NCBI GenBank assembly: GCA_902555065.1
Contig: CACDQQ010000004.1
Span: 1 to 64,000 of the forward strand
Reading direction: 5' to 3'
DNA: 64,000 nt
Origin: an uncultured Pelagibacteraceae bacterium
Lineage (GTDB): Bacteria > Pseudomonadota > Alphaproteobacteria > Pelagibacterales > Pelagibacteraceae
Positions 28,382 to 32,493 of the stretch are shown here, piece after piece. The translations under genes were made by a program, and so were the position numbers. Under the pieces are notes generated by a model. It did not search any database. It saw nothing but the letters and a program-made list of their open reading frames with translations, and was not told where the DNA came from. Positions within the stretch are counted from its first letter, which is position 1. Every line of letters starts with the position of its first letter.

Positions 28382-29317
28382 ATGAAAGTTTGTGTTTATC
28401 TTAGCTATATAGGTCTTGGAGCAAATTTGTTGCATCTAAGTTATGTGCATCAATTATCAGAGAATTACGGACCTGTAACAATTATTACTTTGTGCAAAAA
28501 CTTAACTGATGCGTTGGAAGATGATCCTAAAATTAAAGAGGTCATAGTTATAGATAAAAAATATAATAAATTTAAAAATATTTTTAGTTTTTCTTCAGAA
28601 TTAAAAAAATATAATTTTGATAAAATATTTATTTATTATCCAAGTCCTAGAATATTTATTGCATGTAAGTTAGCTGGAATAAAAGAGATTTATCATTATC
28701 CTTTATTTAAAAACAAAAATCTTCATTTAATCAACGCAGCACAAAAGTTTACTGCAAGTGTATTAAATATAGAGAAATGTCAAACTTATACAAAAATTCA
28801 CATAAATGAAAATAAAATTAAAAGTGTCTCACATTATTTTGATAAGTCAAAATTTAACATTATAATAGGAGCTGGATCTTCAGGTCCAACAACGAAATGG
28901 GGCACTGATAATTACTCAAATCTAATAAATGAATTAAATAAACTAAATAAGTTTAATTTCTTTATTTTGTGTGGTCCTAATGAAAAATTAATTGCTCAAG
29001 AAATAACTGATAAGGTTGAGGGAGATAATATTACAGATCTTAGTGACAAAAATATCTCAGAAGTAATACCATTTATAGCTTCTGCAGATATGTATGTGGG
29101 GAATGATTCTTTTGGTTCGCACATTTCATCACAATCTGGCAAACCAAGCCTTGTAATTTTACTGGACTCTCCAAAAGCATATACAGATTATACTCCCAAT
29201 CATATTAGAATTATTCCTGAAGGTTATGATATTAATAATATCACACATGGAAGTAAAATTGATCCAAATTTAATTAAGGTCGATCAAGTATACAAATCAA
29301 TATTAAGTTATACTTAA
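28382..29317 (+). CDS. Glycosyltransferase family 9 (heptosyltransferase-like)
   Basis: This 311-residue protein has the features of ADP-heptose:LPS heptosyltransferases (GT9, GT-B fold). The N-terminus is GLGANLLHLSYVHQLSE. The central FNIIIGAGSSGPTTKWGTDNYSNLINEL corresponds to the GT9 donor-site loop 'PGsg...K.Wp.e.fa.L', and a near-C-terminal ADMYVGNDSFGSHISSQSGKPSLVIL to 'vgnDSGlmHlAaAlg.P'. The classical D-S-G-H signature reads NDSFGSH, still acceptable. It probably adds a sugar to the LPS core at the inner membrane's cytoplasmic face. Its convergent partner overlaps by four bases. Confidence 0.83.
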   Translation: MKVCVYLSYIGLGANLLHLSYVHQLSENYGPVTIITLCKNLTDALEDDPKIKEVIVIDKKYNKFKNIFSFSSELKKYNFDKIFIYYPSPRIFIACKLAGIKEIYHYPLFKNKNLHLINAAQKFTASVLNIEKCQTYTKIHINENKIKSVSHYFDKSKFNIIIGAGSSGPTTKWGTDNYSNLINELNKLNKFNFFILCGPNEKLIAQEITDKVEGDNITDLSDKNISEVIPFIASADMYVGNDSFGSHISSQSGKPSLVILLDSPKAYTDYTPNHIRIIPEGYDINNITHGSKIDPNLIKVDQVYKSILSYT

Positions 29318-29823
29318 ACAACCGTTTTTAAGACTGTGTCTTTAGCTTGGTTCACTAAAGTAGCAATATTATTTAATTCTGGACTTCTATCTGGATGAAT
29401 TTTTTTCATAATTTTTTTATAAGAATTCATCACTTCATCTTTTGAATATTTTTTTTTAGGATCTAAATTTAAAATTCTATATGCCTCATCTAAACTCATA
29501 TTTTGAGATGACATATTTTGATTGAATTGATTAAAATTAAATCTGCCAGAATTTTTTAGAACTCTAAAAAGCCCCCATAATCTAAATAGCTGAAATAAAG
29601 AAATGCCAGCTTTTGTTTTAATTAAAGGCAAAATAGCCAACATAAATGGTAAGGAAAATATATATCTTCCTGCATATGCCATTATTACCGCTAACAATAT
29701 TGAAGAAATTATAATAAATGTTCTTACAAATTTTGATATTTTTTTTGTTGAGGTTTTCGCAAACCAATTGAGTAAAATATAAAGGATTATAAAGATTATT
29801 AGTATTGCAAAAAAAATATTCAT
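29314..29823 (-). CDS. Membrane-anchored J-domain protein (DjlC/TIM14-like)
   Basis: This 169-residue protein has two to three hydrophobic segments in its first 70 residues (IFFAILIIFIILYILLNWF and others). A linker rich in Asn and Gln follows (FNFNQFNQNMSSQNMS), then a C-terminal J-domain-like region (EAYRILNLDPKKKYSKDEVMNSYKKIMKKIHPDRSP) with HPD. The arrangement is that of TIM14/Pam18-like alphaproteobacterial J proteins, which tether DnaK to the membrane. It is the second J-domain membrane protein in the window. Divergent from the oligopeptidase gene by 17 bases. Confidence 0.82.
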   Translation of the reverse strand: MNIFFAILIIFIILYILLNWFAKTSTKKISKFVRTFIIISSILLAVIMAYAGRYIFSLPFMLAILPLIKTKAGISLFQLFRLWGLFRVLKNSGRFNFNQFNQNMSSQNMSLDEAYRILNLDPKKKYSKDEVMNSYKKIMKKIHPDRSPELNNIATLVNQAKDTVLKTVV

Positions 29824-31923: not shown

Positions 31924-31951
31924 CTTGAATTATCAAAATTAATTACCATAT
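31924..31951 (+). promoter_or_regulatory. Putative sigma-32 (RpoH) promoter of hsp20
   Basis: CTTGAAT at 31924-31930 is followed by a 13-base spacer and TACCATAT at 31944-31951, which matches the CCCCATNT element at 5 of 7 informative positions. The start point would fall near 31957, at the foot of the first leader hairpin. The nine bases GATCTTGAA here are the same as upstream of groES. This supports a shared heat-shock regulon. Confidence 0.62.
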
Positions 31952-31955
31952 CAAT

Positions 31956-32011
31956 ATTGTTAGTCGCCTAATGGGGCTAGCAATAAATAAACTTGCTTAA
32001 TTAAAGGAGGA
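31956..32011 (+). ncRNA. Candidate ROSE-type RNA thermometer in the hsp20 leader
   Basis: Hairpin 1 pairs 31956-31968 with 31973-31984 around a CTAAT loop (10 or more pairs, several G-U). Hairpin 2 pairs CTTGCTT (31992-31998) with AAGGAGG (32004-32010) across an AATTA loop. It hides the Shine-Dalgarno through a stem with a G-G mismatch. The U(U/C)GCU strand opposite AGGAG with that mismatch is the hallmark of ROSE elements, which control small heat-shock genes in alphaproteobacteria. The two hairpins fill the whole inferred leader. Known ROSE elements usually have more hairpins, so this would be a minimal version. Confidence 0.62.
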
Positions 32012-32015
32012 TAAT

Positions 32016-32462
32016 ATGACAAGTAAGGATCTATCAATTTTCAACTCACTTCGGCCTTTCTCAATTGGTTTTGACGATATGTTTGACCAATTCGAAAGCA
32101 TGTTAGGCAATGGTGGTTTAAGTATGCAATCAAACTACCCGCCTTACAACATAAGAAGAACTGGCAAAGATAACTACTCAATTGAGGTTGCTTTAGCTGG
32201 TTTTAGCAAAAAAGATGTTGAGGTAGAGTTTGAAGATAATCTATTAACTGTAAGAACTAAACAAGTTGATAGAAGTGAAAACAAAAACCAAGATGGAGAG
32301 ATAATCCACAAAGGTATATCACAAAGACAATTTGCGAGATCATTTACAATTGCAGATGATGTAAAAGTGAATGGTGCAGAGTTAAAAGATGGTCTTTTAA
32401 CGATTGCATGTGAAAGGATTATCCCGGAACATAAAAAAAAGAAACTTATTGAAATTAAATAA
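32016..32462 (+). CDS. Small heat-shock protein Hsp20 (IbpA-like)
   Basis: This alpha-crystallin-domain holdase of 148 residues binds unfolding proteins for later refolding. It opens with an IbpA-like region (LSIFNSLRPFSIGFDDMFDQFESML). The alpha-crystallin domain spans residues about 45-135 (YPPYNIRRTGKDNYSIEVALAGFSKKDVEVEFEDNLLTVR). The C-terminal I-x-I anchor (IEI) is at the end, needed for oligomer assembly. It has a strong Shine-Dalgarno (AAAGGAGG) six bases before the ATG, probably masked by a leader hairpin at low temperature. A conspicuous stable hairpin follows the stop. Confidence 0.95.
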   Translation: MTSKDLSIFNSLRPFSIGFDDMFDQFESMLGNGGLSMQSNYPPYNIRRTGKDNYSIEVALAGFSKKDVEVEFEDNLLTVRTKQVDRSENKNQDGEIIHKGISQRQFARSFTIADDVKVNGAELKDGLLTIACERIIPEHKKKKLIEIK

Positions 32463-32470
32463 GTACCTTG

Positions 32471-32493
32471 CTTGTGGGGCTAGTCCCCACAAG
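32471..32493. terminator. GC-rich hairpin between convergent genes, possible bidirectional terminator
   Basis: Perfect 9-base arms CTTGTGGGG (32471-32479) and CCCCACAAG (32485-32493) flank a CTAGT loop, in a region otherwise poor in G and C. No T run follows on either side, so it is not a textbook intrinsic terminator. It sits between the hsp20 stop and the stop of the convergent lipoprotein gene (one base away). It may stop both transcripts or stabilise their 3' ends. Confidence 0.5.

Follow-up and report, generated by a model that had tools for sequence, protein, structure and literature searches.

A putative two-hairpin ROSE-type RNA thermometer in the hsp20 leader of SAR11 bacteria, and ROSE-like leaders before rpoH and dnaK in other Alphaproteobacteria

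Results

The hsp20 locus and its promoter

We analysed a stretch of 64,000 nucleotides from an uncultured Pelagibacteraceae bacterium, called the window below. It encodes an IbpA-like small heat-shock protein, Hsp20 (32016..32462, + strand; PF00011, 64.1 bits). The gene is the sole PF00011 match in the source genome (1.2 Mb, rated 82% complete). The sequence and the upstream regions of relatives identify a sigma-32-type promoter. This consists of a -35 element CTTGAA (31924..31929, + strand) and, after a 16-nt spacer, a -10 element CCATAT (31946..31951, + strand). The -10 element agrees with the consensus quoted for the P. putida ibpA promoter (PMC3669281). Among SAR11-family relatives, the chosen -35 element reads CTTGAA in 129 of 149 distinct upstream regions. 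The 16-nt spacer is kept in 130 of the 139 upstream regions with a -10 element matching CCATAT at four or more of six positions. Both counts lack a shuffled control. The same genome encodes rpoH (354.9 bits against a cut-off of 323.1).

From the sequence alone, transcription is expected to start at about 31957-31959, which is 6-8 nt past the -10 element. The inferred leader is 57-59 nt long. A preliminary description of the locus had placed about 59 bases between a sigma-32-like promoter and the ATG, and this held, as did the promoter itself, both hairpins and the Shine-Dalgarno (SD) pairing. It had also named a transcript start downstream of 31998 as grounds for refutation. The conserved promoter gives no hint of such a start, with the caveat that there are no transcript data.

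Two side observations concern the neighbourhood. Two genes from hsp20, positions 29314-29823 (- strand) encode a protein with a J-domain-like C-terminal end; it scores 27.4 bits against DnaJ, just below the 27.8 cut-off. A perfect 9-bp inverted repeat, CTTGTGGGG-CTAGT-CCCCACAAG (32471-32493), lies in the gap where hsp20 converges with a small gene of the opposite strand. It has no T run on either side and has GGGGCTAG in common with hairpin I, described next. Possibly, it is a terminator of both convergent genes.

The leader folds into a strong and a weak hairpin

The leader ending at the ATG folds into two hairpins, as the preliminary description had drawn. Hairpin I (31956..31984, + strand), supported by folding and covariation, is a stable stem with a bulged G31966 and a UAAU loop. 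Its fold has an energy of -15.5 kcal/mol (z -5.15), matched by none of 200 shuffles. Hairpin II (31992-32010) is weak, at -3.0 kcal/mol (z -2.65), and 8 of 200 shuffles fold equally well. Its 5' arm is the anti-SD strand CUUGCUU (31992..31998, + strand), identified by folding and conservation, with the ROSE motif UUGCU at 31993-31997. Its 3' arm is the SD sequence AAGGAGG (32004..32010, + strand), identified by sequence and folding. The predicted pairing of TTGCT with AGGAG across a G-G mismatch held: G31995 lies opposite G32007. The hsp20 ATG at 32016 is 5 nt past hairpin II, leaving the AUG outside it.

The predicted fold depends on where the sequence is cut. When 12 or 27 bases beyond the ATG were added (31954-32030 and 31985-32045), the minimum free energy structure paired CTTGCTT with the coding region instead. 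The fold of 31985-32045 has a z-score of 0.20.

The bare motif says little by itself. The pattern TTGCT-N(3-14)-AGGAG occurs at 32 places in the source genome, compared with 6 for the reversed pattern. Hence, the motif is weak evidence alone, and we rejected it as a stand-alone argument. Conservation across relatives decides the matter. Of 142 distinct 62-nt leaders, 140 have T(T/C)GCT followed 4-9 nt on by AGGAG; among 2820 mononucleotide-shuffled controls, 57 do. Four of the 140 carry the TCGCT variant; the two leaders missing the motif are L135 and L180. The hairpin II motif in the leader is thus beyond chance.

Hairpin I covaries and hairpin II is near-invariant

The hsp20 gene is present in 214 of 297 family genomes, and in 118 of 127 among those of good quality. 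We collected 178 leader rows, duplicates included, from family genomes and named contigs. L101 was left out with its upstream sequence missing, as were L177 and L181, which lack the start. At 93% ungapped identity, 88 leaders remained (alignment A1, plain MAFFT). In a search of contigs with hsp20, the best 80 loci were all Pelagibacteraceae or Pelagibacter.

In a structure-guided alignment of the 88 leaders (A2), 92.0% of cells hold standard pairs, against 85.6% after shuffling. Double changes occupy 92 cells, against 30.0 in shuffles; none of 500 shuffles was as high, and sliding controls gave 13-44. Because A2 was fitted to the structure, these counts lean toward the model. The plain alignment A1 gives the same picture, with 86 double-change cells against 34.1. 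Nearly all double changes in A2 fall in hairpin I, where 10 of 11 pairs show changes on both sides and 91.2% of cells are paired. The hairpin I apex, GCC-UAAU-GG, is conserved among relatives. RNAalifold predicted hairpin I only, and no hairpin II, from these relatives.

Hairpin II is 93.5% paired on A2 and almost invariant, with one double-change cell in its six core pairs. The core is near-invariant in SAR11 because the SD sequence cannot drift. Therefore, the compensatory-change test is uninformative inside SAR11. The preliminary description had named an absence of compensatory changes in the SD-TTGCT pairing as a refutation. Almost none occur in the SAR11 core, and across the class the flanking pairs change on both sides. 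In a class-wide alignment of 42 leaders, again fitted to the structure (A5), one core-flanking pair is U-A in 28 rows and C-G in 5. The other is C-G in 8, G-C in 3, U-A in 3, A-U in 1 and U-G in 1, with 26 of 42 rows unpaired. The alignment of SAR11 hsp20 leaders, which the preliminary description had proposed, thus shows a covarying hairpin I and a retained SD motif.

A covariance model (R1), trained on the 88 leaders with 15 coding bases added, has matches at E <=0.01 in 214 of 297 family genomes. By eye, the lists of genomes with hsp20 and with R1 matches are nearly identical, with one mismatch each way. G252 has an hsp20 fragment at a contig start without an RNA match, and G055 has an RNA match without an hsp20 match. 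Most genomes resemble training rows, so the count is a census and not an independent test. In the source genome R1 finds one place only (150 of 1285 first-look candidates scored) and no second copy of the element.

Comparison with Rfam models

Rfam ROSE models, a check also proposed in the preliminary description, gave nothing at gathering thresholds in the window or in 20 related loci. Hence, home-made models were needed. The best match in the leader is ROSE_3 (RF02523), which aligns over its full length at 23.3 bits (E 0.0053) against a gathering score of 43. The gathering score is a database threshold and not a biological feature. RF00435 (ROSE) scores 13.7 bits on the window, against a threshold of 45. 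Across 190 class genomes it gave five matches, none above the cut-off, and all five adjoin hsp20 relatives. It was silent in all 14 control genomes (0/14). We regard the five sub-threshold matches as a small positive check.

ROSE-like leaders outside the SAR11 family

R1, trained solely on hsp20 leaders of the SAR11 family, was applied to 289 genomes of the class Alphaproteobacteria. Of its matches at E 0.1, 20 lie outside the family: nine before hsp20, four before dnaK, three before rpoH, and four (L193, L200, L203 and L204) before other or no clear genes. A second model, R2, combined 16 SAR11 leaders with the 16 heat-shock leaders found by R1. Run on 385 class genomes at E 0.05, R2 gave 44 matches in 37 genomes, five of them in the SAR11 family. 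The 39 outside comprise 21 before hsp20, eight before dnaK, six before rpoH and four before other genes (L193, L243, L252 and L253). Thus 35 of 39 precede heat-shock genes; 16 of the 35 are training rows, and without training rows the figure is 19 of 23. R2 was built on A+T-rich sequence, and its matches are in genomes of 0.8-2.5 Mb. It was silent in 348 of 385 class genomes; therefore, either R2 overlooks G+C-rich forms or only genomes of this kind have the element. Separately, the matches at L193, L200, L203, L204, L243, L252 and L253 are weak, do not precede heat-shock genes and are likely chance.

The downstream products were checked. All six rpoH products are sigma-32 factors above the NF005143 cut-off (NCBIfam). 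Four of six pass the stricter RpoH model; against its cut-off of 323.1, L245 narrowly misses with 320.7 and L197 falls well short with 282.7. Three of four dnaK products tested pass the DnaK cut-off. The fourth, L247, reaches 562.8 of 648 with DnaK still its best match, its product being cut short by the stretch fetched. The remaining four dnaK products were named by eye. The 12 new hsp20 products among the R2 matches were confirmed by blastp.

Two-hairpin ROSE-like leaders lie directly before rpoH at L187, L195 and L238 (family f22), L197 (f95), and L242 and L245 (f39). All three f22 genomes carry the element on rpoH, two of the three being training rows. By eye, TTGAC(T/A) occurs shortly upstream in all six loci. 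This suggests a vegetative promoter, in which case production of sigma-32 itself would be heat-gated at translation; this is an inference. By eye, no ROSE element was seen in the rpoH leader of SAR11 itself.

ROSE-like leaders precede dnaK at L196, L198, L237 and L256-L282 (family f56), and at L199, L201, L239, L247 and L250. In f56, 33 of 40 genomes matched, and the anti-SD strand is often UUUGCCU rather than UUGCU. We inspected 30 of the 35 f56 matches, of which 29 open a DnaK reading frame. At the f56 locus L267 the frame begins MSKVIGI like other dnaK frames and then breaks. Alignment A4 comprises 30 f56 leaders, five dnaK leaders from outside f56 and a stray additional match in L279. It has 65 double-change cells, compared with 21.1 after shuffling, and strong covariation in hairpin I. 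The stray match (L279, 2556-2631, - strand) is weaker and precedes a protein of 259 residues whose sequence, judged by eye, suggests secretion.

Codons 2-4 of hsp20 are constrained at the nucleotide level

Codons 2-4 of hsp20 are ACA AGT AAG (32019..32027, + strand). Two stretches within them, AAGUAAG (32021-32027) and CAAGU (32020-32024), are each complementary to the strand that pairs with the SD sequence. The synonymous test used 127 distinct sequences from 155 complete coding sequences starting M-T; genera with other protein starts were excluded. Among the 105 codons tested, codons 2-4 alone never change synonymously (median 11 changes), and two further codons do so once. Codon 2 is ACA in 127 of 127, while codon 3 is AGT in all 124 sequences keeping Ser and codon 4 AAG in all 124 keeping Lys. 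These are minority codons, since AGT makes up 16% of Ser and AAG 25% of Lys codons in hsp20 genes.

Early codons of neighbouring genes served as a control. An ABC transporter start was discarded, its sequences being too alike (median 1 change per codon), and 14 neighbouring families from the same genomes were used. These offered 14 testable codons at positions 2-4; nine varied and five were unchanged (AGA, CCA, AAA, AAT and AAA), where AGA, AAA and AAT are the common codon. All three early codons were testable in only one of the 14 families. We conclude that codons 2-4 of hsp20 are under nucleotide constraint. Because they lack synonymous change, the element probably reaches into the coding region. 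On balance, we lean towards a functional element that includes codons 2-4 and in which they can compete with the SD sequence for the anti-SD strand.

Predicted opening of the SD sequence

In nearest-neighbour folding of the window leader alone, 3.5% of the SD sequence is open at 45 C, and the median of 45 leaders is 2.4%. In the same calculation the E. coli ibpA leader, a proven thermometer, is 0.3% open. The calculation therefore does not discriminate, and we rejected nearest-neighbour melting curves as proof of a thermometer. With 21 coding bases added, the SD sequence of the window is predicted to be open throughout, falling from 0.95 at 5 C to 0.74 at 45 C. This prediction, of an SD sequence open and slightly less so when warm, counts against a simple thermometer.

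Discussion

A short ROSE-type leader

The best-supported reading is that the hsp20 leader is a short two-hairpin ROSE-type RNA thermometer. We consider this very likely, with the temperature response inferred in the absence of transcript or protein data. ROSE elements sit in the leaders of small heat-shock genes, often transcribed by sigma-32, as is the case here by the PF00011 match, the promoter and the encoded rpoH. A U(U/C)GCU strand should pair with the SD sequence in the 3' hairpin, and does. The pairing should be imperfect, with a G opposite the SD sequence, and is; non-canonical contacts are invisible in sequence. ROSE-like thermometers also have a stable 5' hairpin, one in the short class, and hairpin I meets this. 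The ROSE reading thus rests on the position, the U(U/C)GCU strand, the G-G mismatch, the free AUG, the 5' hairpin and the sigma-32 promoter, which match the short class. As another class of thermometer, fourU elements pair the SD sequence through a run of four U. We rejected that assignment; the anti-SD strand is CUUGCUU, with no four-U run.

The closest likeness is to the short ROSE element of Pseudomonas ibpA (PMC3669281). Both have a leader of about 60 nt, a sigma-32 promoter of the same consensus, a stable hairpin I, a weak hairpin II in which U(U/C)GCU faces the SD sequence, a free AUG and a small heat-shock gene. Unlike Pseudomonas, SAR11 belongs to another bacterial class and is A+T-rich, and its element has the complementary block at codons 2-4. 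The preliminary description had proposed a two-hairpin ROSE-type element, which is supported with the temperature response still inferred. It had also called the leader far smaller than typical ROSE elements. Compared with short ROSE elements this does not hold, since the leader of P. putida ibpA has 62 nt (PMC3669281) and the Rfam ROSE_3 model 69 positions. Its view that the reduced size is itself of note is likewise not supported, the short architecture being known (PMC3669281).

Rhizobial ROSE elements (RF00435; Bradyrhizobium hspA) share the U(U/C)GCU anti-SD strand, and the apex of the first hairpin in the RF00435 consensus, GCC-uuau-GG, resembles that of SAR11. Their leaders have more hairpins, three to four (PMC3669281), and the RF00435 model spans 94 positions. 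The E. coli ibpA ROSE-like thermometer (PMC10474464) also controls an IbpA-type protein, whose Arg93 and Tyr34 are conserved in SAR11. The E. coli leader is longer, and IbpA feedback is known there (PMC10474464).

Proposed mechanism

In the proposed mechanism, sigma-32 would transcribe hsp20 from the conserved promoter. Hairpin I would fold stably in the new mRNA and may keep the remaining leader from misfolding. Hairpin II would hold the SD sequence against UUGCU through weak pairs and the G-G mismatch, so that in the cold ribosomes would be unable to dock. On warming, hairpin II would open first and hsp20 would be translated. The sequence, the conserved structure and the gene context are shown. 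The temperature response, the repression in the cold, the role of hairpin I and the order of melting are inferred. In the short ROSE element of Pseudomonas, probing shows that hairpin II melts while hairpin I stays, and reporters show thermal control (PMC3669281). Thermal melting of the SAR11 leader is inferred by analogy, because its architecture matches.

Alternative explanations

An alternative is that Hsp20 binds its own leader and represses it until aggregates titrate the protein away, so that temperature acts indirectly. E. coli IbpA represses its own leader via Arg93, with Tyr34 also important (PMC10474464). The Arg93 equivalent, Arg104 of the window's Hsp20, is Arg in all 105 distinct SAR11-family proteins, and the Tyr34 equivalent is Tyr in 104 of 105. 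The position of IbpA Arg97 is Arg or Lys in all 105. The conserved hairpin I apex also favours feedback. Against it, the IbpA Lys98 position is Ser, Thr or Gln in 105 of 105, and conservation of Arg93 may reflect chaperone structure. Feedback does not exclude a thermometer, because the E. coli leader is subject to both kinds of control. For SAR11 hsp20 an additional level of regulation by the protein is plausible; it is inferred from residue conservation and we would not favour it on present evidence.

A further possibility is a bistable switch. Here the anti-SD strand would choose between the SD sequence (closed) and codons 2-4, which would leave the SD sequence free and the start region lightly paired. 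The balance might be set by temperature or by ribosome traffic. Such a switch would refine the ROSE reading and is not exclusive of it. In its favour, codons 2-4 lack synonymous change, with AGT and AAG being minority codons. When this block is included, the SD sequence, closed in the predicted fold of the leader alone, becomes partly free. When 48 synonymous versions are ranked by how well they free the SD sequence at 20 C, the native codons take ranks 2-7 in 27 of 27 leaders. The median predicted opening with 21 coding bases (45 leaders) is 0.09 at 5 C, 0.30 at 20 C and 0.50 at 30 C. Several points stand against it. The native-codon ranks are not independent, because the block is the same in all 27 leaders. 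In absolute terms, the opening at 20 C is <=0.072 in 7 of 27 leaders (0.001 in L031) and as high as 0.95 in L153. The anti-SD strand and the coding block show no covariation, and distant genera (rows L157-L179) have an altered block or none. The joint cost of opening the SD sequence through codon 4 is not unusual for native codons. The early-codon control had just one fully testable neighbour family, and the window's own SD sequence is predicted to be open at all temperatures. The two-partner switch remains a hypothesis.

Least tenable, and very unlikely, is an ordinary 5' UTR in which hairpin I serves only to shield the mRNA or to insulate the start, and the match between UUGCU and the SD sequence is incidental; the 32 genomic occurrences of the bare motif and the weakness of hairpin II favour it, but the motif is kept in 140 of 142 leaders, and of the 39 R2 matches outside the family 35 precede one of three heat-shock genes (19 of 23 once training rows are left aside).

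Implications

Short ROSE elements are already known, and by its architecture the SAR11 element belongs with them. New here are the constrained coding block and the relatives before rpoH and dnaK. ROSE-like motifs have been described before ABC transporter genes (PMC11342760). In the open-access literature searched, by title and abstract start, no paper describes ROSE before rpoH or dnaK; Waldminghaus 2005 was outside that scope. In the same literature, the paper richest in mentions of Pelagibacter uses the word thermometer once, in a general passage that also mentions cold-shock proteins.

If functional, the rpoH and dnaK relatives would extend ROSE beyond small heat-shock genes. Those before rpoH would be an RNA counterpart, with another fold, of the E. 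coli rpoH thermometer (PMC4166951). The function proposed is analogous; the E. coli thermometer is complex and takes in up to 229 nt of coding region, whereas the relatives are two-hairpin ROSE-like leaders. A bolder reading is possible. Rather than being tied to small heat-shock genes, ROSE may be a general translational thermometer of small-genome Alphaproteobacteria, acting on rpoH, dnaK and hsp20. In SAR11 it may have turned into a two-partner switch, where codons 2-4 serve as a built-in competitor that frees the SD sequence within the ocean temperature range. SAR11 cells meet small temperature changes. Nearly all hsp20 genes of the family retain the putative thermometer, which argues for selection for temperature-gated translation, the temperature response itself being inferred.
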